Of a stretch of DNA of 64,000 nucleotides, positions 29,108-39,159 are shown in pieces. The stretch's first letter is position 1. Each line of letters starts with the position of its first letter. The DNA is from Burkholderiales bacterium (GTDB taxonomy: Bacteria > Pseudomonadota > Gammaproteobacteria > Burkholderiales > Burkholderiaceae_D): contig JACQDX010000104.1 in assembly GCA_016200895.1 (NCBI GenBank), positions 124,001 through 188,000 on the forward strand, in the 5' to 3' direction. A model generated the notes under the pieces. That model ran no database searches and had not been told where the DNA came from. It was given only the letters and a program-made list of their open reading frames with translations. Made by a program: the position numbers and the translations under genes.

Positions 29108-30718
29108 CTACTTATCGCTCAATGCATCCCAGCTCAATCCAAACTTGCTGAGATATTTTTTAAGCCTGTCAGCGTCATTGGGATTGGCTTTATTACTGCG
29201 TGAAGCAGCAAACAATTTCCGGCCTGCTTCCGACATGTTTTTAGAACGCTGGCATACCGCCAGCACAGCCTGTAATTGCACTGCATCGAATAAGTCCAGT
29301 TGTGCGACTTTTTCAGCATCCAGATAGTCATGCAAATCCAGCTCATGCGTTTCACGGCCGCCTTCATGTGCATGTGACCACAGGCGTTGCAGGCGTTTGA
29401 TTTCTTCGCCAGCATTCTGATCATTGATGCGCCCGGCATCGGCCAGTGTGGCCATGCGTGTGATTGAAGCGGATAAATCACGGAAATTGCCTGCCCACAC
29501 CGCCTGGGTCGAAGTGGCAAATTCCATATAGCTGTCTTTCGCTTCTTTATTGAAGCGCACCATCTGCCCATTCTCGGCACTGTATTGCGATAGTAGATAA
29601 TCGATATTCGGCGCAATGTCTTCCACGCGACCACTGAGACCTGGTAATTCATACGACCATAGATTGATGCGCGCATACAAGTCTTCTCGAAAGCGGCCTG
29701 CCGCTACTTCCTTGCCCAGATCACGGTTGGTACCCGCAACCAGCTGGAAATCGCTTTGTACTTCATGGTCGCCACCAACCGGGAAGAAGCGTTTTTCTTC
29801 CACCGCCTTGAGCAACATGGCTTGTTCATCCAGGCCCAGTTCACCAATTTCATCGAGAAACAGCAAGCCCTTGTGCGCCGTCCTCAGCAAGCCGGGGCGA
29901 TCAGACATGGCGCCGGTGAACGAACCTTTGATATGGCCAAACAGGGTAGAACCTGCGCCATCACCACGCAGGGTAGCGCAATTGACTTCGACAAACTTGC
30001 CTTCCAGCCTGTGTCTGGCTTTTTTCAATTCAAAGATCCGCCGCGCCAGGAATGATTTGCCTGCACCGGTCGGCCCCATCAGCAGGATGGCAGCTTTGGA
30101 CTTGATGGCGACACGTTCAATTTCATCGATCATGGTATTGAAGCGTGCATTGCGGGTGGCAATGCCAGACTTTAAAAAAGCCACGCCTTCTTCCTGCTCA
30201 CGGCTAAAGCGTTGAGCGATCTGGTCATAGCGCGACAAGTCCAGGTCAATGATGGTCATCTCACCAAAATTGTCCTTAGTCTGGCGTCGCGGTGGCGAAG
30301 TCTGCAAGAGCTTGCCGGGCAGGTAATTGGCTTCCGTCATCAGGAACAGGCAAATTTGCGCCACGTGGGTGCCAGTGGTGATATGCACCCAGTATTCTTC
30401 TTTATCGGTATCGAAGGGGTAAGACCTGGCAAAGTCAAACAGACAGCCATAGACATCTTCAAAATCCCAGGGATCCTGTATTGATAACTGATGTGAACGT
30501 ACTTTGGTTTCTGGCGAAGTATCGGCAATGTCCTTTTCTAATTGCGCAAGCAACAGTTCATGCTGGCCGCTATGCAGTAAATCGATGCGGTCGATGACGA
30601 TATCTTCATGCTGGGTCAAAGCAACCGTGGGTCGCCATTTTTCCCAGCGACCGCTACCGCGACCGCTATCAAGTTGGGTGCCTATAAAACCGATGACAAC
30701 TTTTTTCTTCTTGATCAT
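29108..30718 (-). CDS. rtcR: RtcR, sigma-54-dependent activator of RNA repair genes
   Basis: A 536-residue bacterial enhancer-binding protein. Residues 1-185 form the CARF-type sensor domain (VVIGFIGTQLDSG, HITTGTHVAQICLFLMTEANYLPG). From about 190 the AAA+ domain has Walker A GPTGAGKS at 215-222, the sigma-54-contacting loop GSFTGA at 265-270 (the canonical GAFTGA with Ser for Ala) and Walker B LLFLDE at 285-290. A C-terminal DNA-binding region follows (VCQRSKNMSEAGRKLFAASR). In E. coli and Salmonella, RtcR senses RNA damage through its CARF domain and activates rtcBA and rsr operons. Here it is divergent from rsr, with a sigma-54 promoter in between. Confidence 0.95.
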   Translation of the reverse strand: MIKKKKVVIGFIGTQLDSGRGSGRWEKWRPTVALTQHEDIVIDRIDLLHSGQHELLLAQLEKDIADTSPETKVRSHQLSIQDPWDFEDVYGCLFDFARSYPFDTDKEEYWVHITTGTHVAQICLFLMTEANYLPGKLLQTSPPRRQTKDNFGEMTIIDLDLSRYDQIAQRFSREQEEGVAFLKSGIATRNARFNTMIDEIERVAIKSKAAILLMGPTGAGKSFLARRIFELKKARHRLEGKFVEVNCATLRGDGAGSTLFGHIKGSFTGAMSDRPGLLRTAHKGLLFLDEIGELGLDEQAMLLKAVEEKRFFPVGGDHEVQSDFQLVAGTNRDLGKEVAAGRFREDLYARINLWSYELPGLSGRVEDIAPNIDYLLSQYSAENGQMVRFNKEAKDSYMEFATSTQAVWAGNFRDLSASITRMATLADAGRINDQNAGEEIKRLQRLWSHAHEGGRETHELDLHDYLDAEKVAQLDLFDAVQLQAVLAVCQRSKNMSEAGRKLFAASRSNKANPNDADRLKKYLSKFGLSWDALSDK

Positions 30719-30857: not shown

Positions 30858-30873
30858 TGGCACGCCCATTGCA
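30858..30873 (+). promoter_or_regulatory. Sigma-54 promoter of the rsr-rtc operon
   Basis: TGGCACGCCCATTGCA matches the -24/-12 consensus (TGGCACG, four bases, TTGCA) without mismatch. Transcription should start about 12 bases downstream, near 30885, giving a leader of about 60 bases that contains an AAGAGC/GCTCTT hairpin (30886-30910). It fits with control by the divergent RtcR. Confidence 0.93.
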
Positions 30874-30944: not shown

Positions 30945-32510
30945 ATGGTTAATACTCAATTGTTCCAGAGTTTAAAAAACTCACTGACAAATAAATTTTT
31001 GCCAGTCACAGATACAACAAATTTTTCTGGCGTAGCAGCCTACAAGTTCACTGCCGAACACAAGCTGGCGCAATACGCAGCAACCGGTTGTTTGAACGCG
31101 ACTTACTACGCCAGCGCAGAAGCGCAACTGGCTACAGTGCTGGATTTGACAAAAGAGGTAACGCCTCTGTTCGTAGCGCAAACAGCAATTTACTGCCGCG
31201 AACGTGGCTATATGAAAGACATGCCAGCCCTGCTGGTGGCAGCACTGACCATGCGTAATGCAGTGGAGTTGCCGCGTACTTTCAAGCGAGTGATGAATAA
31301 CGGCAAGATGTTGCGTAACTTTGTGCAGATTGTGCGTTCAGGTGCGATAGGCCGTAAATCCCTGGGCAGCCGTCCTAAGAAACTGGTACAGGCATGGTTG
31401 AATACTGCCAGCGAAAAAGAATTGTTGTCAGCTGCGGTGGGCACAACGCCATCACTGGCAGACGTTGTAAAAATGGTGCATCCAAAACCTGCCGAAGCAT
31501 GGCGTGAAGCCTTCTTTGCCTGGTTGATAGGTAAGCCATACAAGGCAGAAGCTTTGCCACCTGTCGTCGCAGCCTTTGAAGCATACAAGAAAGACCGCAG
31601 CCTGGCTTTGCCGGATGTGCCTTTCCAGATGCTGACAGCGATGGATTTGACGACAGAAGACTGGGCGCAGATAGCCCGCCAGGCTGGCTGGCAGATGTTA
31701 CGTATGAACTTGAACACCTTTGGCCGTCACGGTGTATATGCCTTGCCAGGCATGGTGGACTTGATCGCTGCGAAATTGAGTAATGCCGAAGCGATTGCCA
31801 AGGCCAAGGTATTTCCTTACCAGTTGATGGCAGCTTACAAGGCAGCGAATGAAGAAGTGCCATTGCCTATCAAGAATGCCTTGCAAGATGCGATGGAAAT
31901 CGCCTTGAGCAATGTGCCAGAAATATTTGGCAAAGTTGTGGTGTGTGCTGACGTGTCAGGTTCCATGTCGTCTGCAGTCACAGGTTACCGTGGCTCCGCA
32001 ACGACAGCGGTACGTTGCATAGATATCGCTGCCCTGGTTGCTGCTGCCATGTTGCGCAAAAATCCATCGACTCTGGTTTTGCCGTTTGAAAACCATGTCG
32101 TGAAGTGTGATTTGAACCCACGTGACAGCGTGATGACCAATGCACAGAAACTGGCTGCGATAGGTGGCGGCGGAACCAATTGCAGCGCACCACTGGTGCA
32201 GTTGAACAAGAGCAAGGCGCAGGCTGACCTGGTGATCTTTGTCTCTGACAACGAATCATGGATGGATGCAAGCCGTAGTCGTACGACTGCAACCATGGCG
32301 GAATGGAATGTGTTTAAACAACGCAATCCACAAGCCAAACTGGTATGCATAGATATTGCACCTTACGGCACGACACAGGCAGCAGAAAGAGATGATATTT
32401 TGAATGTAGGTGGCTTTTCTGATGCCGTATTTAAAATAATCGCTGCCTTTGCTGCGGGTCAGCTAAGTGCAGAGCGTTGGGTAGGTGAAGTAAAGGCAAT
32501 TGATATTTAA
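30945..32510 (+). CDS. rsr: Ro60 orthologue Rsr: TROVE domain plus von Willebrand A domain
   Basis: A 521-residue ring-shaped RNA-binding protein. The TROVE HEAT-like repeats cover residues about 15-325 (NFSGVAAYKFTAEHKLAQYAATGCLN, ERGYMKDMPALLVAALTMRN). The vWA domain from about 330 has MIDAS motif DVSGS at 336-340 and the supporting GGGGTNCSAPL. Bacterial Rsr binds Y RNAs and, with PNPase, takes part in structured RNA decay and stress survival. GAGG lies upstream of the ATG. It is the first gene after the sigma-54 promoter and is followed immediately by a series of Y-RNA-like modules. Confidence 0.95.
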   Translation: MVNTQLFQSLKNSLTNKFLPVTDTTNFSGVAAYKFTAEHKLAQYAATGCLNATYYASAEAQLATVLDLTKEVTPLFVAQTAIYCRERGYMKDMPALLVAALTMRNAVELPRTFKRVMNNGKMLRNFVQIVRSGAIGRKSLGSRPKKLVQAWLNTASEKELLSAAVGTTPSLADVVKMVHPKPAEAWREAFFAWLIGKPYKAEALPPVVAAFEAYKKDRSLALPDVPFQMLTAMDLTTEDWAQIARQAGWQMLRMNLNTFGRHGVYALPGMVDLIAAKLSNAEAIAKAKVFPYQLMAAYKAANEEVPLPIKNALQDAMEIALSNVPEIFGKVVVCADVSGSMSSAVTGYRGSATTAVRCIDIAALVAAAMLRKNPSTLVLPFENHVVKCDLNPRDSVMTNAQKLAAIGGGGTNCSAPLVQLNKSKAQADLVIFVSDNESWMDASRSRTTATMAEWNVFKQRNPQAKLVCIDIAPYGTTQAAERDDILNVGGFSDAVFKIIAAFAAGQLSAERWVGEVKAIDI

Positions 32511-32567: not shown

Positions 32568-32649
32568 TTTGAACGCAGCATGAATGTAAATGTGATTACA
32601 TCTGAAAACTGTAAAATCACCTTTAATCCTTGTCATGCAGTGCTTCAAA
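32568..32649 (+). ncRNA. Y-RNA-like module 1 (minimal form)
   Basis: Closing stem GCAUGA (32578-32583) with UCAUGC (32633-32638), extended outward past an A-A mismatch to UUUGAA/UUCAAA. The internal loop is AUGUAAAU on the 5' side and ends CCUUG on the 3' side. The inner stem GUGAUU (32592-32597) with AAUCAC (32615-32620) can extend as UUACA/UGUAA. There is no tRNA-like part. The architecture is that of the Ro-binding stem of a Y RNA. Confidence 0.75.
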
Positions 32650-32675
32650 GACCATGTGAGTGTGGTCTTGAGTTT

Positions 32676-32748
32676 GAAATGCAGTACGAATGCGCAGGCG
32701 ATTACATCCCAAAAAAAATCGCAGGCAGACCTTGTCGTACCGTGTTTC
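32676..32748 (+). ncRNA. Y-RNA-like module 2 (minimal form)
   Basis: Closing stem GUACGA (32684-32689) with UCGUAC (32735-32740), extended past an A-C mismatch by GAAAUGC/GUGUUUC. The 5' internal loop starts AUGC and the 3' loop ends CCUUG. Inner stem GCGAUU (32698-32703) with AAUCGC (32717-32722), followed by ACAU and an A-rich loop. Both stems differ in sequence from module 1 but stay paired. Confidence 0.78.
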
Positions 32749-32783
32749 TCAATGCTGCAATCAGATGTCGCAGTACAGGTTTT

Positions 32784-32856
32784 GAATATGGCATGAATGC
32801 TGACGTGATTACATTTGAAACGTAAAATCACTATCTATTTTTGTCATGTCATATTC
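32784..32856 (+). ncRNA. Y-RNA-like module 3 (minimal form)
   Basis: A long closing stem, GAAUAUGGCAUGA (32784-32796) with UCAUGUCAUAUUC (32844-32856), paired throughout with one G-U. The internal loop is AUGCUGAC opposite a strand ending UUUUUG. Inner stem GUGAUU (32805-32810) with AAUCAC (32826-32831), then ACAU. No tRNA-like module. Confidence 0.78.
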
Positions 32857-32883
32857 AATAAATATCATTGTGCTTGTTTTTTT

Positions 32884-32951
32884 GAATGCTACATGAATGC
32901 TTATGTGACTACATGGGGTGTTCACATCAATCACTTGTCATGTGGAGTTTC
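32884..32951 (+). ncRNA. Y-RNA-like module 4 (minimal form)
   Basis: Closing stem CUACAUGA (32889-32896) with UCAUGUGG (32938-32945), including a U-G pair. The 5' internal loop is AUGCUU and the 3' loop ends CACUUG. Inner stem AUGUGA (32903-32908) with UCACAU (32922-32927), with CUACAU following. A short stem without tRNA-like arms. Confidence 0.72.
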
Positions 32952-32974
32952 AAAGAGAAGTTCGTAAAGGTTTT

Positions 32975-33055
32975 GAGTAGCTCAAGAATGCAGTTGTGAC
33001 TACATTTTTTGCAAAAGTGAAGCGGTCACAGCAAAGTTTTGTCTTGTTACTGCTC
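32975..33055 (+). ncRNA. Y-RNA-like module 5 (minimal form)
   Basis: Closing stem CAAGA with UCUUG, prolonged by GAGUAG/CUGCUC at the ends (32975-32987 with 33042-33055). The internal loop is AUGCAGUU opposite a strand ending UUUUG. Inner stem GUGACU (32996-33001) with GGUCAC (33024-33029), then ACAU and a 22-base terminal part. Confidence 0.75.
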
Positions 33056-33067
33056 AATCTGGTTTTA

Positions 33068-33165
33068 CCCGAATGCCATCAGGATTACATCGGTTAAATT
33101 GGTTCGACTCCAGTCTGGTCTGCACCGCAAGGACAGATCAGAAAATCCTGGTAACACTTGTCGGG
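33068..33165 (+). ncRNA. Y-RNA-like module 6 with a T-arm-like hairpin
   Basis: Closing stem CCCGA (33068-33072) with UCGGG (33161-33165), internal loop AUGCCAUC opposite a strand ending CACUUG, and inner stem AGGAUU (33081-33086) with AAUCCU (33144-33149), then ACAU. Inside are a T-arm-like hairpin AUUGG-UUCGACU-CCAGU (33098-33114) and a second hairpin CUGGUCUG/CAGAUCAG (33115-33141). A U-rich tract (GUUUUAUUUUA) follows and may end or pause transcription. Confidence 0.75.
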
Positions 33166-33189
33166 GTTTTATTTTAAAGTAGAGACGTA

Positions 33190-33564
33190 ATGAAAAGCGG
33201 AAAGCAAAGACGGACAGAAATCATGGAAAAGCGGCGCGCCCGCATACCTGTAAAAGAAAGTTTTGATGTTTATGTTATGCCAGCACCTGCTGGAGCAGTG
33301 ATGGCTGATCGTGAGGCATTAAGTCACAATAAGAATGCTATTTTCCTGCCCTTGTTTTATGTGGACTATGCCTTCAACTGTCGTGATTGTGGATGCGCAC
33401 AGATATGGACAGGCAAGCAGCAGAAGTGGTGGTATGAAATCATGCAGGGTAATATCAATAGCGTAGCCATTCGATGTCGTCCTTGCAGGAAGGTAGAGCA
33501 GCAAAGAAAGAAATTAGCCAGGGAAACTCATTTGAGTGGTCTGGCAGCAAAGCACAAACATTGA
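33190..33564 (+). CDS. Zinc-ribbon protein (zf-trcl type) embedded among the Y-RNA-like modules
   Basis: A 124-residue basic protein. The N-terminal half is Arg/Lys-rich (RRTEIMEKRRARIP). Residues about 57-105 match the probable zinc-ribbon domain known as zf-trcl: FYVDYAFNCRDCGCAQIWTGKQQKWWYEIMQGNINSVAIRCRPCRK, with CxxC pairs (CRDC and CRPC) to bind zinc and the invariant QQKWWYE. The molecular role is not established. A basic Zn-ribbon in the middle of an RNA operon suggests RNA binding. It lies 25 bases after module 6 and 8 bases before module 7, so it should be co-transcribed with them from the sigma-54 promoter. Confidence 0.85.
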   Translation: MKSGKQRRTEIMEKRRARIPVKESFDVYVMPAPAGAVMADREALSHNKNAIFLPLFYVDYAFNCRDCGCAQIWTGKQQKWWYEIMQGNINSVAIRCRPCRKVEQQRKKLARETHLSGLAAKHKH

Positions 33565-33571
33565 GTTTTCA

Positions 33572-33695
33572 GGCGAATGCCAGTGAACGTGCAACGGTCC
33601 TAAGGTGGTGAACAGATGCAATATGGTCTGGTGTAGCCTGGGTACTGACTCTTCATTGAGTCTCCCGGCCGTCGGTTTCACAGCCCCTTGTCGCC
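33572..33695 (+). ncRNA. Y-RNA-like module 7, divergent inner part
   Basis: Closing stem GGCGA (33572-33576) with UCGCC (33691-33695), internal loop AUGCCA opposite AGCCCCUUG, and inner stem GUGAA (33583-33587) with UUCAC (33677-33681). The UACAU motif is replaced (GUGCAAC). Inside is a D-arm-like stretch GGUGUAGCCUGGGUA and a GACUC/GAGUC hairpin (33647-33662), but no clear T loop. It may be a degenerate or specialised effector domain. Confidence 0.65.
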
Positions 33696-33742
33696 GCAAG
33701 TAATTTGGAAATGAAAGAGTTTGTGTGGTGAGTAAAAGTTTA

Positions 33743-33880
33743 GGCGAATGCTGGTGAAATTACATCACTTTTAATGAGGCTGTCGCGGGTTCGAAGCCCG
33801 TCACGAAATCTCGGTTTCGTGTAGCTCAGTTGGTAGAGCACCTGTGGGTGACCACATACATTTCACCGAATATTGTCGCC
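33743..33880 (+). ncRNA. yrlA: YrlA-like Y RNA with permuted tRNA mimic (module 8)
   Basis: Closing stem GGCGA (33743-33747) with UCGCC (33876-33880), an internal loop AUGCU opposite GAAUAUUG, and an 8-bp inner stem GGUGAAAU (33753-33760) with AUUUCACC (33860-33867). The distal part copies a tRNA in permuted order: T stem/loop GCGGG-UUCGAAG-CCCGU (33785-33801), a 7-bp acceptor CACGAAA (33802-33808) with UUUCGUG (33815-33821), then UA and a D arm GCUC-AGUUGGUA-GAGC (33824-33839). There is no anticodon arm and no CCA end. This is the organisation described for bacterial YrlA RNAs, which bind Rsr through the stem. Confidence 0.9.
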
Positions 33881-33960
33881 ACCAAAAATGGCAGGTTTTA
33901 AAGTAAGAGAAGCAAGGTAGCGGCTAATAGCGGTTTGGCTGTTGCGGTAAAAAAAGTTTA

Positions 33961-34084
33961 GGCGAATGCGGATGAAACTACATCGCTACGAACGAAGTGG
34001 TCGTGGGTTCGATTCCCGCCATGGTGTAATCTGGCGCCGTGTAGCTCAGTGGCAGAGCACTTGTTTCATCATCCCCTTGTCGCC
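33961..34084 (+). ncRNA. YrlA-like Y RNA with permuted tRNA mimic (module 9)
   Basis: Closing stem GGCGA (33961-33965) with UCGCC (34080-34084), internal loop AUGCG opposite AUCCCCUUG, and an 8-bp inner stem GAUGAAAC (33971-33978) with GUUUCAUC (34063-34070). The tRNA mimic consists of T arm GUGGG-UUCGAUU-CCCGC (34003-34019), a 7-bp acceptor CAUGGUG (34020-34026) with CGCCGUG (34035-34041) closed by an 8-base loop, then UA and D arm GCUC-AGUGGCA-GAGC (34044-34058). It ends 29 bases before the rtcB start. Confidence 0.9.
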
Positions 34085-34113: not shown

Positions 34114-35349
34114 ATGAAGCACGAAGATTATGATGTAATGCAATACAAAGATGGTCGTCCTATCAAAATGTGGACCAAAGGCGTCCCTGTTGAAGACGAA
34201 GCCAAAAAACAATTGGCCAATACTTCGCGTATGCCTTTCATCTACAAACATATTGCCGTGATGCCGGACGTGCATTTGGGTAAAGGTTCAACTATCGGTA
34301 GCGTGATACCGACACTGGGTGCGGTGATCCCGGCGGCTGTTGGTGTGGATATCGGTTGCGGGATGATGGCTGCCAAGACTACCCTGTTCGCCCATGATTT
34401 GCCAGATAACCTGGGTCCTTTGCGTACAGCGATAGAAAAAGCCATACCGCATGGTATGTCACCTAAGACCCGTAGCTTCAAAGGCCGTGATAAGGGTTCA
34501 TGGGAATCGCCACCAAGCGCTGTGGATAATGCATGGGCAGAATTGAAAGATGGTTTTGATGAAATCTGCTTGAAAACCCCGCGTTTGAGAAACACCAATA
34601 ACTACCGTCACCTGGGGACTTTGGGTAGCGGTAATCACTTCGTTGAAGTGTGTCTGGATGAAGCCAATGCCGTATGGTTCATGTTGCATTCTGGTTCACG
34701 TGGTGTAGGTAATGCGATCGGTAGCCATTTCATAGAACTGGCCAAGCAGGATATGCGCACCCATTTCATTAACTTGCCCGATCAGGACCTGGCTTATTTG
34801 CCAGAGGGTACCCAGCATTACAAGGATTACATTGAGGCAGTGGGTTGGGCGCAAAAATTTGCACGTATGAACCGTGAAGTGATGATGCAGAATTTGATTG
34901 CTGCTGTCCGTACCGTGATCAGCAAACCGTTTGAGACTCATGTCGAAGCGGTAAACTGCCACCATAATTATGTACAGAAAGAGCATCACTTCGGTAAAGA
35001 TGTATTGGTAACCCGTAAAGGTGCAGTATCTGCGCGTGCTGGTGAATTGGGGATTATCCCTGGTTCCATGGGAGCAAAAAGCTTCATCGTGCGTGGTAAA
35101 GGAAATGAAGAAAGCTTCAATAGCTGCAGCCACGGCGCAGGCCGTACCATGAGCCGTACCGCAGCCAAGAAATTGTATACCGTCGCCGATCAGATCGCTG
35201 CAACCGAAGGTGTGGAATGCCGTAAAGATGCCAACGTGATTGATGAAATCCCTATGGCATATAAAGACATCGATGCCGTCATGCTGGCCCAAAGTGCCCT
35301 GGTAGATGTGGTGCATGTATTGAAGCAGGTAGTGTGTGTTAAGGGTTGA
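34114..35349 (+). CDS. rtcB: RtcB RNA ligase
   Basis: A 411-residue GTP-dependent ligase that joins 2',3'-cyclic-phosphate or 3'-phosphate RNA ends to 5'-OH ends, repairing cleaved tRNA and rRNA. The metal and GTP site residues are visible: MPDVHLGKG (about 50-58), VGVDIGCGM with Cys82, GSGNHFVE, HSGSRGVGN, NCHHNY (281-286) and SCSHGAGRTMSR with His340 as the guanylylated histidine. AAGAGAAAAAT precedes the ATG. It directly follows module 9 and belongs to the RtcR/sigma-54 operon. Confidence 0.96.
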   Translation: MKHEDYDVMQYKDGRPIKMWTKGVPVEDEAKKQLANTSRMPFIYKHIAVMPDVHLGKGSTIGSVIPTLGAVIPAAVGVDIGCGMMAAKTTLFAHDLPDNLGPLRTAIEKAIPHGMSPKTRSFKGRDKGSWESPPSAVDNAWAELKDGFDEICLKTPRLRNTNNYRHLGTLGSGNHFVEVCLDEANAVWFMLHSGSRGVGNAIGSHFIELAKQDMRTHFINLPDQDLAYLPEGTQHYKDYIEAVGWAQKFARMNREVMMQNLIAAVRTVISKPFETHVEAVNCHHNYVQKEHHFGKDVLVTRKGAVSARAGELGIIPGSMGAKSFIVRGKGNEESFNSCSHGAGRTMSRTAAKKLYTVADQIAATEGVECRKDANVIDEIPMAYKDIDAVMLAQSALVDVVHVLKQVVCVKG

Positions 35350-35362
35350 TTTACGAAAGACC

Positions 35363-35500
35363 ATTAACCACGGAGGCACAGAGGCACAGAGGCACAGAGA
35401 AAGACAAGAGAAAATATCTATGAAATTGAGTAACTCAAATTTTATGAAAAAGAGGTTTCTCTTGCTTTTCCTCTGTGTCTCTGTGCCTCTGTGTTGAGAG
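35363..35500. repeat. Inverted repeat with GAGGCACA units between rtcB and rtcA
   Basis: The left arm (about 35368-35413) contains three GAGGCACA-type units followed by GAGAAAGACAAGAGAAA; the right arm (about 35456-35497) is its near reverse complement (TTTCTCTTGC, CTCTGTGCCTCTGTG). The arms flank an AT-rich centre of about 40 bases. CACGGAGGCACAGAGG-type repeats are dispersed in many genomes. In RNA it would make a long hairpin between the two repair genes. Confidence 0.8.
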
Positions 35501-35540
35501 GTCTTGAACTTGCTTTTGATTTGAATTGAAAATAAAAATA

Positions 35541-36578
35541 ATGAATAAAAAAATGATAGAGCTGGATGGCTCTTTGGGTGAGGGTGGTGGGCAGATATTG
35601 CGTACGTCTTTGAGCCTGTCCATGATTACCGGTCAACCGTTTCGCATCATCAATATCCGTGCTGGCCGCGCCAAGCCTGGCTTGTTGCGCCAGCATCTGG
35701 TTGCCGTGCAATCGGCTGCGGCTGTCAGCGGTGCGCAGGTGACCGGTGCAGAACTGGGTTCGACCACGCTGGAATTTATTCCATCGGGTATCTATGGCGG
35801 TACTTACCAGTTCGCCATTGGCAGTGCCGGTAGTTGCACCCTGGTATTGCAGACCTTGATACCCGCTTTGCTGTATGCCGATAAACCATCGACCATCAAG
35901 ATCACTGGTGGCACCCACAATGACATGGCACCGCCTGCACAATTCTTGCAAAAGGCCTATGGCCGGGTATTGCAGCAGATGGGTGCAGATGTCAGCTTTG
36001 AATTAAAGCGCTATGGTTTTGTACCCGCCGGCGGTGGTGAAATCATCGCCCAGATACAGCCATGCAAGCAGTTGAAAAAAATCGATTTGCAGGAACGTGG
36101 TGAAAGACTCAAAGGATATGCAGAAAGCTTTGTCGCCGGTGTACCTGTCGATGTCGCCAAACGAGAACTGGAATGCGTAGGTGCAGGCATGGGCTGGACT
36201 GCTGATCAGTTGCTGGTGCGTGGCCTAAGCAATGATCAGGGGCCGGGCAATGTACTGCTGATTACGCTGGAACATGAACAGGTCACCGAAGTGTTTTGTG
36301 GTTTTGGTGAAAAAGCCGTCAAGGCAGAAAATGTTGCCAAGCGCACTGTGCAGGAATTGCGTGAGTATGTCGCATCCGGTGCAGCACTGGGCGAGCACCT
36401 GGCAGACCAGGTCATGTTGCCCTTTGCACTGGCGGGCGGAGGAAGTTTTACATGCAGCGTCGTTTCGCAACATGCGAAAACTAATGCGGATGTGATTGGA
36501 CGGTTCTTGCCTGTGAGTACAGAGTTTACATCACAAAATAAGTGTTTCATTTGTGATATGCGTACTAATAATGGCTAA
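35541..36578 (+). CDS. rtcA: RtcA, RNA 3'-terminal phosphate cyclase
   Basis: A 345-residue enzyme converting RNA 3'-phosphates to 2',3'-cyclic phosphates using ATP through a covalent adenylyl-histidine. The family blocks are LDGSLGEGGGQILRTSLSLS near the N-terminus, IRAGRAKPGLLRQH, GSAGSCTLVLQT, GGTHNDMAPP and GEHLADQVMLPFALAGGGSF, the last holding the catalytic His. The frame opens at TTG 35526; I chose the ATG at 35541 (MNKKMIELDG), though 35553 is possible because the ribosome site is poor. It follows rtcB after the long inverted repeat. Confidence 0.95.
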   Translation: MNKKMIELDGSLGEGGGQILRTSLSLSMITGQPFRIINIRAGRAKPGLLRQHLVAVQSAAAVSGAQVTGAELGSTTLEFIPSGIYGGTYQFAIGSAGSCTLVLQTLIPALLYADKPSTIKITGGTHNDMAPPAQFLQKAYGRVLQQMGADVSFELKRYGFVPAGGGEIIAQIQPCKQLKKIDLQERGERLKGYAESFVAGVPVDVAKRELECVGAGMGWTADQLLVRGLSNDQGPGNVLLITLEHEQVTEVFCGFGEKAVKAENVAKRTVQELREYVASGAALGEHLADQVMLPFALAGGGSFTCSVVSQHAKTNADVIGRFLPVSTEFTSQNKCFICDMRTNNG

Positions 36579-36621
36579 TTTGTTATTTGATTAAAAATTG
36601 TGCACTACTTGGGAGTCGAGG

Positions 36622-37353
36622 ATGGCAAACGAAAGTCTTTATAAATTAGCGCTTGATCACATGAGTCATACTGTGGATTTATTAACAAGCAATGTTCCTG
36701 CACCCCAAAAGGTGCCGTATCAAACTTCGTTTGTTTACCGATACGTCGAGAAAACAATTCATCAAGCGATAGTGCAAAAAGTTGCAAGAATTGTTTCCAC
36801 ATTGAGTGCAGCGCATTTGCTAATGCATCATGGTTTCGTGCAAGAGCAAGCATGTTTACAAAGAATTCTTCAGGAGCTGAATGAAGACGTTTATTTTCTC
36901 TCGATCGCAACAATAAATAATGACGTAACTGCACTTCATAAAAGTTATTTAGAAGCATTTTATGAAGAGGAATTTGATGCCAATACACCTCTTGAATCGA
37001 CTCAAAAACGGATCATGATTCCGAGGCAAAAAATTCAAGCATATTTAGCTAGCGTGGGTGGTAGTGGTCTTGACCGAAGTACAGGTAATAATCTATTAAA
37101 AACACTTTCTAAAACATACTCTGGTTTTGTCCATGGCGCTTCTCCTCAAATTATGGAGATGTATGGCGGCGACCCTCCTAAGTTTCATGTGTATGGTTTA
37201 TTGGGAACAAGTCGATATCAAGAGCATAGAGATGATCTTTGGAATTATTTTTATAGAAGCATTCTGGCCTTCGGGTTTGCTGCAAAAGCTTTTGGTGATC
37301 AAAGATTATTTGACCAAATAAGCGCATTTTTATACAAATTTGAGAAAAATTAA
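36622..37353 (+). CDS. Uncharacterised, AT-rich orphan gene downstream of rtcA
   Basis: A 243-residue soluble, mainly helical protein that I do not recognise. The start at 36622 has GTCGAGG just upstream. Features seen: an R-x6-H pair (R40, H47, within YRYVEKTIHQ), HLLMHHGF near residue 70, and a C-terminal block KTYSGFVHGASPQIMEMYGG. The R-x6-H spacing is compatible with HEPN ribonucleases but is weak evidence. Codon use and base composition are clearly more AT-rich than in rtcA or rtcB, which suggests recent acquisition. Confidence 0.7.
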   Translation: MANESLYKLALDHMSHTVDLLTSNVPAPQKVPYQTSFVYRYVEKTIHQAIVQKVARIVSTLSAAHLLMHHGFVQEQACLQRILQELNEDVYFLSIATINNDVTALHKSYLEAFYEEEFDANTPLESTQKRIMIPRQKIQAYLASVGGSGLDRSTGNNLLKTLSKTYSGFVHGASPQIMEMYGGDPPKFHVYGLLGTSRYQEHRDDLWNYFYRSILAFGFAAKAFGDQRLFDQISAFLYKFEKN

Positions 37354-37950: not shown

Positions 37951-39159
37951 ATGCCTATAGCTCAAAGTTTGCACAAGGCCAAAGTGCCTGTGCATTTATT
38001 TACCGATGATGTCGATCACACTGCCATACAGCAGTTGCTCAATATCGCTAATTTAAACATTGTCCATCCTTATGTGGCTGCCATGCCGGATGTGCATGCG
38101 GGTGTGGGGGCTACGGTAGGTAGTGTGATACCTACCCGCTCGGCCATCATTCCTGGTGCTGTGGGTGTGGACATAGGTTGTGGCATGAATGCCGTGCGCA
38201 CGACGTTGACTGCCAGCCAGTTGCCTGACAATCTGGCGAAACTGCGCAGTGCGCTGGAAGCCGAAATACCGGTCGGTTTTCGCCAGCATGCCTGGAACAG
38301 GATGCGCGGGTCTGCCCTGGTCAGGGTAGGCAAGCCCTTGAATGACAGGCTGGACAAGATCGTCGCCAAGCACAAAAGCATCATGAAAATGCTGCCCAAG
38401 TTTTACCAAACCTGGATATGCCAGTTGGGTACCCTGGGTGGTGGCAATCACTTCATTGAAGTGTGTATTGATGAAGAGCAGCGTGTATGGATCATGCTGC
38501 ATTCTGGTTCACGTGGCGTGGGCAATGTCATAGGCCGTCATTTTATCTGGGCCGCCAGGAAAGAAATGTGGCGGCACCAGATACATTTGCCGGACAAGGA
38601 CTTGTCTTATTTCACTGAAGGCTCGGAATTGTTTGACGACTATATCGAAGCCGTGCAGTGGGCGCAGGACTATGCGCTGGCCAACCGCAGTGAAATGATG
38701 CGCAGGGCGCTTGCCGTGCTGGAAAAAGAAGTCACCAGCTTCAAGCTTGATGGTGAAGCTATCAATTGCCATCACAATTATGTGTCGCAAGAAACGCATA
38801 ATAATGAAAATCTCTTCATCACCCGCAAGGGGGCAATTTCTGCCCGCATGGGTGAAATGGGGATTATTCCCGGCAGCATGGGGGCGCGCAGTTATATCGT
38901 CAGGGGCAAGGGTAATCCTGAATCATTCTGCTCCTGCTCGCATGGAGCAGGGCGCAGGATGAGCCGTGGAGAGGCAAGGGAAACTTTTGATGCAGATGAT
39001 CTGGCAGCCCAGACTCAGGGTATAGAATGTCGCAAGGACAAGGGTGTAGTGGATGAAATTCCCGCAGCCTATAAAAATATCGACGAAGTTATGGCACATC
39101 AGCATGACCTGGTCGAGATTGTGCATACCTTGCGTCAGGTTGTTTGCGTAAAAGGATAG
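37951..39159 (+). CDS. Second RtcB-family RNA ligase
   Basis: A 402-residue paralogue of the upstream RtcB with all active-site motifs: AAMPDVHAGVG, VGVDIGCGM with Cys78, GGGNHFIE, HSGSRGVGN, NCHHNY (272-277) and SCSHGAGRRMSR with His331. It differs from the first copy in its N-terminal half and in the central insertion (about 105-155), and belongs to a separate subgroup. AGAAGGAAAATTGT lies before the ATG. It is outside the first operon, after two terminators, so it probably has its own regulation. Confidence 0.93.
   Translation: MPIAQSLHKAKVPVHLFTDDVDHTAIQQLLNIANLNIVHPYVAAMPDVHAGVGATVGSVIPTRSAIIPGAVGVDIGCGMNAVRTTLTASQLPDNLAKLRSALEAEIPVGFRQHAWNRMRGSALVRVGKPLNDRLDKIVAKHKSIMKMLPKFYQTWICQLGTLGGGNHFIEVCIDEEQRVWIMLHSGSRGVGNVIGRHFIWAARKEMWRHQIHLPDKDLSYFTEGSELFDDYIEAVQWAQDYALANRSEMMRRALAVLEKEVTSFKLDGEAINCHHNYVSQETHNNENLFITRKGAISARMGEMGIIPGSMGARSYIVRGKGNPESFCSCSHGAGRRMSRGEARETFDADDLAAQTQGIECRKDKGVVDEIPAAYKNIDEVMAHQHDLVEIVHTLRQVVCVKG

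Follow-up and report, generated by a model that had tools for sequence, protein, structure and literature searches.

We analysed a stretch of 64,000 nucleotides (nt) from a Burkholderiales bacterium (GenBank assembly GCA_016200895.1, contig JACQDX010000104.1, positions 124,001–188,000), hereafter the window, in whose own numbering coordinates are given, and in which nine modules resembling bacterial Y RNAs lie between rsr, encoding an orthologue of Ro60, and rtcB, encoding an RNA ligase. The source is a relative of Undibacterium, its Rsr sharing 97–98% identity with the Rsr of U. umbellatum, of Undibacterium sp. TS12 and of U. pigrum. The locus opens with rtcR (29108–30718, minus strand), which codes for a sigma-54 activator (NCBIfam RNA_repair_RtcR, 824.6 bits, cut-off 650; Pfam RtcR, E-value 7.6e-86) and is divergent from the operon. 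On the plus strand follow a sigma-54 -24/-12 site, TGGCACGCCCATTGCA (30858–30873), 5' of rsr (30945–32510, 521 residues), then the modules, rtcB (34114–35349; Pfam RtcB, 5.4e-130), which starts 29 nt past the ninth of them, and the RNA 3'-phosphate cyclase gene rtcA (35526–36578; Pfam RTC, 7.2e-77; NCBIfam, 433.3 bits, cut-off 352). The sigma-54 site is the window's sole perfect match to TGGCRYN5TTGCW; if one mismatch is tolerated, 21 sites match where chance predicts 21.4, so that the case for the site lies in its exactness and its placement. The features of an RtcR-controlled RNA-repair operon (divergent rtcR, sigma-54 site, rtcB and rtcA) are all present, as an earlier annotation of this DNA, the sequence-only reading, had proposed, and the region is the known rsr-Y RNA-rtcBA RNA-repair operon in an enlarged form. 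That reading had also considered an undescribed ribonucleoprotein system, a suggestion that falls away, since rsr-yrlBA-rtcBA operons have already been described (PMC7790460).

The assignment of the upstream protein as a Ro60 orthologue holds as well. It matches Pfam vWA_Ro60 (4.8e-21), and its predicted fold (mean predicted local distance difference test score 78.9) retrieved from the PDB, with Foldseek, Deinococcus radiodurans Rsr, Ro60 and the Trove domain as its 12 top matches (E-values 9.6e-18 to 8.6e-15), the 13th dropping to 0.024. The best match was 2NVO (9.6e-18), the Ro60 chains were similar, and the template modelling scores normalised by query length were 0.61–0.67. Judged by this predicted structure, the protein is a Ro60/Rsr ring with the HEAT-ring plus vWA fold. 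It scores 82.8 bits (E-value 1.8e-23, residues 18–507) with NCBIfam RNA-bind_Rsr and misses the cut-off of 900 bits, by which measure of sequence it would belong to a diverged branch.

A strict regular expression (GAATG ... TTGTC, with a closing stem of at least 5 base pairs (bp)) gave nine matches, all on the plus strand, between 32578 and 34084, and zero elsewhere on either strand of the window; a looser pattern (GA[AG]TG, span up to 230 nt) added one overlapping chance match within the array. The nine modules noticed in the sequence-only reading are confirmed, on one sense strand between rsr and rtcB, although the array is not unbroken, because an open reading frame (33190–33564) separates modules 6 and 7. 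The modules share a base made of a closing helix ending in GA/UC, the loop strands AUGC and CUUG and a covarying inner helix, with UACAU present in eight of them. The published Ro-binding consensus of Y RNAs comprises the closing helix and the internal loop, and we judged the base seen here to fit it.

Modules 1–5 are minimal (32578–32638, 32684–32740, 32782–32858, 32889–32945 and 32983–33046), the third having a closing helix of 15 bp. Their layout, a closing helix NNNNGA/UCNNNN followed by AUGC, inner helix, UACAU, loop, inner strand and CUUG, recurs across many genera, and from 39 minimal modules, these five included, we built a covariance model, R1. Modules 1–5 are recovered by R1 by construction, as members of its training set (63.1, 60.8, 56.2, 49 and 50.8 bits, respectively; E-values 1e-10 to 2e-14); module 6 (33067–33166), in which the Y base carries a T-arm (loop TTCGACT) and a hairpin, and no D or anticodon arm was seen, is found at 30.5 bits (8.4e-6). 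With the Rfam model of YrlA (RF02553, gathering cut-off 69 bits), sub-cut-off scores were obtained for module 9 (33961–34084; 61.7 bits), module 8 (33743–33880; 51.5 bits) and module 6 (29.4 bits), and with that of YrlB (RF02565, cut-off 97 bits) module 3 alone scores in the window (25.2 bits). Among relatives, single modules pass the YrlA cut-off (L118, 70.1 bits; L128, 80.2 bits). YrlB reaches 35.3 bits in one module of locus L134 and exceeds its cut-off in none of 274 genomes of the class and 14 controls, with one sub-cut-off match in the 274. Some modules missed by the Rfam models, or left by them under the cut-off, are also picked up by R1.

The paired stems of the array had been read as covarying, and absence of covariation in homologous arrays had been named as what would speak against the reading; both the minimal and the tRNA-like modules show it. 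The 39-row alignment, which was not fitted to the structure, has 152 double-changed cells where shuffles give 55 ± 8, and its structure score is 0.58, whereas slid structures do not exceed 0.13. Since the closing helix had entered module selection and the inner helix had not, the inner helix is the fair test of covariation, and taken alone it has 76 double-changed cells against 30.9 ± 5.4 (0 of 500 shuffles as high), a score of 0.46 against at most 0.16, and 77% of its cells paired. Related sequences can exceed shuffles without any structure, so that the slid control carries more weight. The alignment of tRNA-like modules holds 33 sequences, modules 8 and 9 together with 31 homologues, and has 27 pairs; 99.5% of its cells are paired, with 86 double changes against 19.5 expected and a score of 0.34 against at most 0.09 for slid structures.

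The modules are tied to rsr in other genomes. Comparisons between loci rest mainly on the best 80 of 250 rsr loci found, which are hence close relatives, and module counts, taken as the union of regular expression and R1, are approximate in both directions. Over 91 rsr loci (1.03 Mb), R1 gave 218 matches at E-values up to 1; the 193 that were placed, on 82 loci (178 in the best-80 set, 9 on L058 and 6 on L059), all lie 3' of rsr, in the interval that runs to rtcB or to where the stretch ends. The 25 unplaced matches comprise 16 on nine loci of other families or phyla, seven of which have an R1 match at an E-value below 0.01 or near it, and 9 weak ones. At least one module was found by either method in 79 of the 80 loci, the exception (L148) ending 143 nt after rsr; L074 is truncated by the end of its contig, and R1 alone missed all modules in four loci (L102, L125, L139 and L144).

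Among 195 genomes of the family, R1 (E-value 1e-4) matched in 27, an Rsr protein was found in 28 and both in 26, that is, R1 matches occur in 26 of 28 genomes with Rsr and in 1 of 167 without (Fisher p 7e-29, for genomes that share ancestry and are not independent). The sole genome with modules and no full Rsr (G106) keeps pieces of 30 and 21 residues of the rsr end beside its modules. In this relic locus (L196, 4500–4636 and 4273–4471) the rsr-end fragments are followed by three R1 matches. The two Rsr-positive genomes without an R1 match are G009, with a short contig, and G125, whose locus (L080) has only longer modules, found by regular expression; it scored 38.8 bits in the R1 scan of loci and was missed under the stricter filters of the genome scan.

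Nine modules had been called an unusual number, and this is borne out: among 76 loci with rtcB in the stretch, 70 have one to four modules (1 in 4 loci, 2 in 22, 3 in 26 and 4 in 18) and six have at least five. These six are three Massilia loci (5, 6 and 7 modules) and three Undibacterium loci (8, 9 and 9 after correction, U. pigrum having 9 rather than 10, as a 235-nt match of L076 at 1986–2220 is an open reading frame false positive; the ninth module of L075, which reads GAATAC, was missed by the regular expression). In a further relative (G001, one contig) we counted 13 modules that do not overlap; seven are minimal by R1 and six were found by Rfam YrlA at E-values below 1e-4, two of the latter also by R1. 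A second genome of the same genus has 9, so that at least three genera have long arrays. Across five Undibacterium genomes, each of modules 1–6 is closest to its positional counterpart in another genome (30 of 30), and the best identity to a paralogue is 0.37–0.78, which argues that the copies are old and separately kept.

Above the inner helix the modules are not one fold. The sequence-only reading had described one fold repeated nine times, of which the common base stands and the single fold does not, as four kinds of apical domain are present: minimal in modules 1–5, T-arm plus hairpin in module 6, a permuted T-arm, acceptor hairpin and D-arm in modules 8 and 9, and a different, 23S-like domain in module 7. 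In pattern-based, approximate counts over the best-80 loci, L058, L059 and the window, 115 short modules include none with a T-arm of at least 4 bp and 103 with UACAU, 80 mid-length modules include 44 with a T-arm, and 92 long modules include 65 with a T-arm and 60 with a D-arm-like stretch. Linkers between modules are 6 nt or longer.

Modules 8 and 9 are circularly permuted tRNA mimics, carrying on the inner helix a T-arm, acceptor hairpin and D-arm as YrlA does. This permutation was examined with ARAGORN on 92 modules longer than 100 nt with a T-arm, 73 of which have a clear acceptor hairpin; these were rotated, with the hairpin opened, the Y base removed and many end points tried. tRNAs were called in 55 of 73 rotated modules and in 0 of 73 unrotated ones, and moving the cut by 25 nt either way left 0 and 4 of 73. 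De-permuted, module 8 is most frequently called tRNA-Lys(ttt), also in a rigid version, and module 9 tRNA-Arg(acg), the latter being 88% identical over 43 nt to the tRNA-Arg(acg) genes of the same genome.

Before the T-arm, both modules carry a 14-nt insert that is absent from the Rfam YrlA consensus and folds into a hairpin whose loop has seven bases, CUUUUAA in module 8 (TCA-CTTTTAA-TGA, 33765–33777) and CUACGAA in module 9 (TCG-CTACGAA-CGA, 33983–33995). Room for such an anticodon-like arm exists in 58 of 64 modules with both T- and D-arm, amounting to 41 distinct sequences. In a rigid register, fixed by the T-arm alone, the first three pairs form in 30 of these 41 (shuffled mean 6.9, maximum 14 in 1000), with stems such as AGA/UCU, AGC/GCU, UCA/UGA, UCG/CGA and CAA/UUG, and 23 of the 30 loops have Y32, U33 and R37 (letter-shuffled mean 3, maximum 12; 30 of 32 in the organism's own tRNA loops). 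The middle triplet takes 16 forms.

In relatives, a second tRNA permutation, with the break in the D-loop, is a lead only. Among 17 candidates, 5 were skipped, as no T-arm or acceptor hairpin was found in them; 7 of the other 12 were called tRNA when rotated and 0 unrotated, and it is a lead only because 5 of these 7 have only calls with an unassigned anticodon. The last modules of L136, L149 and L150 show the order GGUAGACGC ... long variable arm ... GGCGGAGUG, that of a tRNA permuted at the D-loop, and we take the likeness to be to tRNA-Leu.

Module 7 (33572–33695) differs from the rest. Its positions 33593–33612 match 23S rRNA at 18 of 20 positions, and the orthologue in strain TS12 at 20 of 22; the organism's own 23S was not found in the assembly, so that the 23S of another genome (G117) was used, trimmed of most of its flank in the later ranking. 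The score of the window copy was reached by 3 of 1000 dinucleotide shuffles. When 31 modules without a T-loop were ranked by similarity to 23S, the four orthologues of module 7 took ranks 1–4, and three of the four exceeded all of 60 letter shuffles. The U. pigrum copy does not, and is below its own dinucleotide-shuffle maximum too, yet it keeps the same 12 letters; in U. hunanense the best match is to a second 23S stretch, which starts about 70 nt further on, in the same order. In the consensus fold, ACGGUC pairs with GGCCGU (GGCCGT at 33667–33672), and these are the closing strands of a 23S helix that we take to be helix 69, opened at its loop as in the tRNA mimics.

Only four related sequences were found for this domain. 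An Rfam scan of module 7 gave no match, and neither a T-loop nor UACAU was found in it; as a tRNA it was ruled out by the lack of a T-loop. The similarity is suggestive of a mimic of the helix-69 region of 23S rRNA. Modules 8 and 9 were also above shuffles against the flanked 23S locus, and these matches are taken to be tRNA-like matches in the flanks. The first modules of L132, L133, L136 and L150 have a kept GC-rich apical domain without a T-arm (GGCCGC ... CAACGG ... GUAGGCCGC), whose copy in L133 was not above shuffles in its similarity to 23S.

The closest described system is the rsr-yrlBA-rtcBA operon of Salmonella Typhimurium (PMC7790460), which shares the order rtcR / rsr - Y RNAs - rtcB - rtcA, control by RtcR and sigma-54, a Ro60 orthologue and a tRNA-like Y RNA; by its name it holds two Y RNAs, whereas the window holds nine, and the window differs further in its several minimal modules, a treble-clef gene within the array, the anticodon-like hairpins and the 23S-like domain. 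YrlA (RF02553), whose structure 6CU1 is that of a circularly permuted tRNA (PMC11472068), is laid out like modules 8 and 9, with an inner helix that bears T-arm, acceptor hairpin and D-arm permuted in one and the same way. The two modules differ from it in scoring below the Rfam cut-off and in their 14-nt hairpin; in a review, only D, T and acceptor arms are named for YrlA (PMC8394870). In D. radiodurans, Rsr and a Y RNA redirect PNPase (PMC8394870, PMC8058203); the Rsr fold and a Y RNA that tethers Rsr to an effector are common ground, whereas the window has an operon with RtcR, RtcB and RtcA and nine diversified modules. The kind of system is known; as far as a limited literature search goes, the novelty lies in the length of the array, in its mixture of domains, in the hairpin that the Rfam model lacks and in the 23S-like domain. 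The minimal modules resemble YrlB (RF02565), presumably a short Y RNA without a tRNA-like domain.

From the computed fold, covariation, Rsr identity, operon context, rsr linkage, permuted tRNA architecture and anticodon-loop grammar, we consider it probable that the locus holds an expanded and diversified bacterial Y RNA array in an RtcR/sigma-54 RNA-repair operon, in which Rsr-binding bases carry effector domains mimicking tRNA and rRNA. What follows on Rsr binding, processing, induction in the window species, partners and function we infer. Each base (closing helix, AUGC/CUUG internal loop and inner helix) should hold one Rsr ring. The five minimal modules, YrlB-like, stop there and would probably gate Rsr or only occupy it, and in the other four the inner helix would carry an effector domain, which is a T-arm plus hairpin in one, a permuted tRNA mimic in two and a 23S-like domain in one. 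In Salmonella, RtcR binds broken tRNA with cyclic phosphate ends and switches on rsr, the Y RNAs, rtcB and rtcA (PMC7790460), and it is from there that we take the operon logic: RNA damage would activate RtcR, and one transcript would deliver Rsr, nine Y RNAs of differing kinds, RtcB and RtcA. The Y RNAs would then be cut free from the transcript and could spread Rsr over partners that bind tRNA or rRNA, such as modification enzymes, PNPase and possibly RtcB. With a common Rsr-binding base and differing effector domains, the role of each domain could be tested one by one; if the reading is true, the anticodon-like hairpins and the rRNA-like domain widen Y RNA mimicry and tie Y RNAs to the damage that RtcB repairs.

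Several results weigh against this reading. In the minimal modules, the number of pairs with any double change is not above shuffles, either over the whole structure (11, shuffles 10.1) or over the inner helix (7, shuffles 6.4). R1 finds module 8 only at chance level (E-value 0.82) and gives no match to modules 7 and 9. The comparison with Rfam that the sequence-only reading had called for returned the likeness of modules 6, 8 and 9 to YrlA and of module 3 to YrlB, and a cut-off was reached by none of the nine. Between 30700 and 35600, the count of promoter- and terminator-like sites is not above shuffles, and no processing site was identified. The anticodon-like stem has three pairs (of the 30, none forms the fourth and 10 form the fifth), and loops identical to one of the 32 own anticodon loops number 7 of 30 against 4.2 at random, a value reached in 213 of 2000 trials. 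Shuffling the anticodon-like arm left 31.6 of 56 ARAGORN calls (maximum 36) against 42 for the real arm, so that ARAGORN leans on the other arms; this control weakened the calls as proof of an anticodon arm, and the rigid-register count was used instead. Three-pair stems, chance-level triplets and the shuffled-arm calls together indicate that what the hairpin shares with an anticodon arm is the grammar of the loop, not the identity of any particular tRNA.

Within the reading of a diversified Y RNA array, we tentatively suggest a library of Rsr-bound mimics of translation RNAs (permuted tRNAs with an anticodon hairpin, the D-loop-break permutation in relatives, some with a tRNA-Leu-like long variable arm, the T-arm form and a permuted 23S helix-69 region) that might serve as exchangeable adaptors or baits, aiming Rsr with RtcA and RtcB at damaged RNAs. 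An account in which the tRNA-like (and 23S-like) modules are decoys or sensors, baiting RNA-cutting toxins so that the cut bait is religated by RtcB or feeds the RtcR signal, seems to us unlikely. It would suit anticodon-shaped hairpins within permuted tRNA mimics encoded beside an RNA ligase, and competitive inhibition of a nuclease by YrlA has been suggested (PMC7790460); against it stand the undetected YrlA fragments in Salmonella after damage (PMC7790460) and a permuted 5' piece that differs from a tRNA 5' half. The triplets also speak against it, with no enrichment for the organism's own anticodons and A34 the commonest base (13 of 30), A not being among the two commonest at position 34 in the own tRNA set. 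A34 is mostly avoided by real tRNAs. The narrower idea of decoys for specific tRNAs is unsupported, the own-anticodon matches being at chance.

The array might instead stay unprocessed in the mRNA as a scaffold or autoregulator, binding several Rsr rings so that the Rsr level sets rtcB expression, which we regard as rather improbable. In 42 of 79 loci, 16–51 nt separate the last module found from the rtcB match (29 nt in the window), as such a role would favour, but in the other 37 the distance is 59 to 2298 nt (some of these being missed last modules, as in L075), and the purine-rich stretch that precedes rtcB is not part of the module. Selfish or neutral tandem duplication, with most copies lacking function, would account for copy numbers that differ by lineage and for Massilia arrays that repeat a pair of short and mid-length modules; it is highly improbable for copies that are old and distinct by the positional orthology above and whose inner helix is kept by double changes. 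That a protein-coding region or unrelated hairpins were mistaken for Y RNAs has a negligible chance, for the frame of 81 residues that overlaps modules 1–3 (32580–32825) has no Pfam match, and base-pair covariation and linkage to rsr stand against it. In the Massilia loci L086, L089 and L091, pairs of a short and a CCCGA mid-length module are repeated two or three times, suggesting growth by pair duplication.

The gene between modules 6 and 7 (33190–33564, plus strand) encodes a treble-clef protein of 124 residues (zf_Tbcl, Pfam PF13451, 8.5e-11), with homologues 569–877 nt 3' of rsr in L074, L075, L076, L077 and L134; weaker homologues (39–52% identity) were seen 1.6–3.3 kb 3' of rsr at nine loci, mostly of Variovorax. 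Between rtcB and rtcA, a long inverted repeat of CACAGAGG-type units (35358–35504) resembles a small repeat element, and Rfam matches to plant microRNAs at this place were discarded, as they are below cut-off and fall on the inverted repeat. Downstream of rtcA lie a frame of 251 residues (36598–37353) without a Pfam or NCBIfam match and, at 37951–39159, a second RtcB, about 52% identical to the first.

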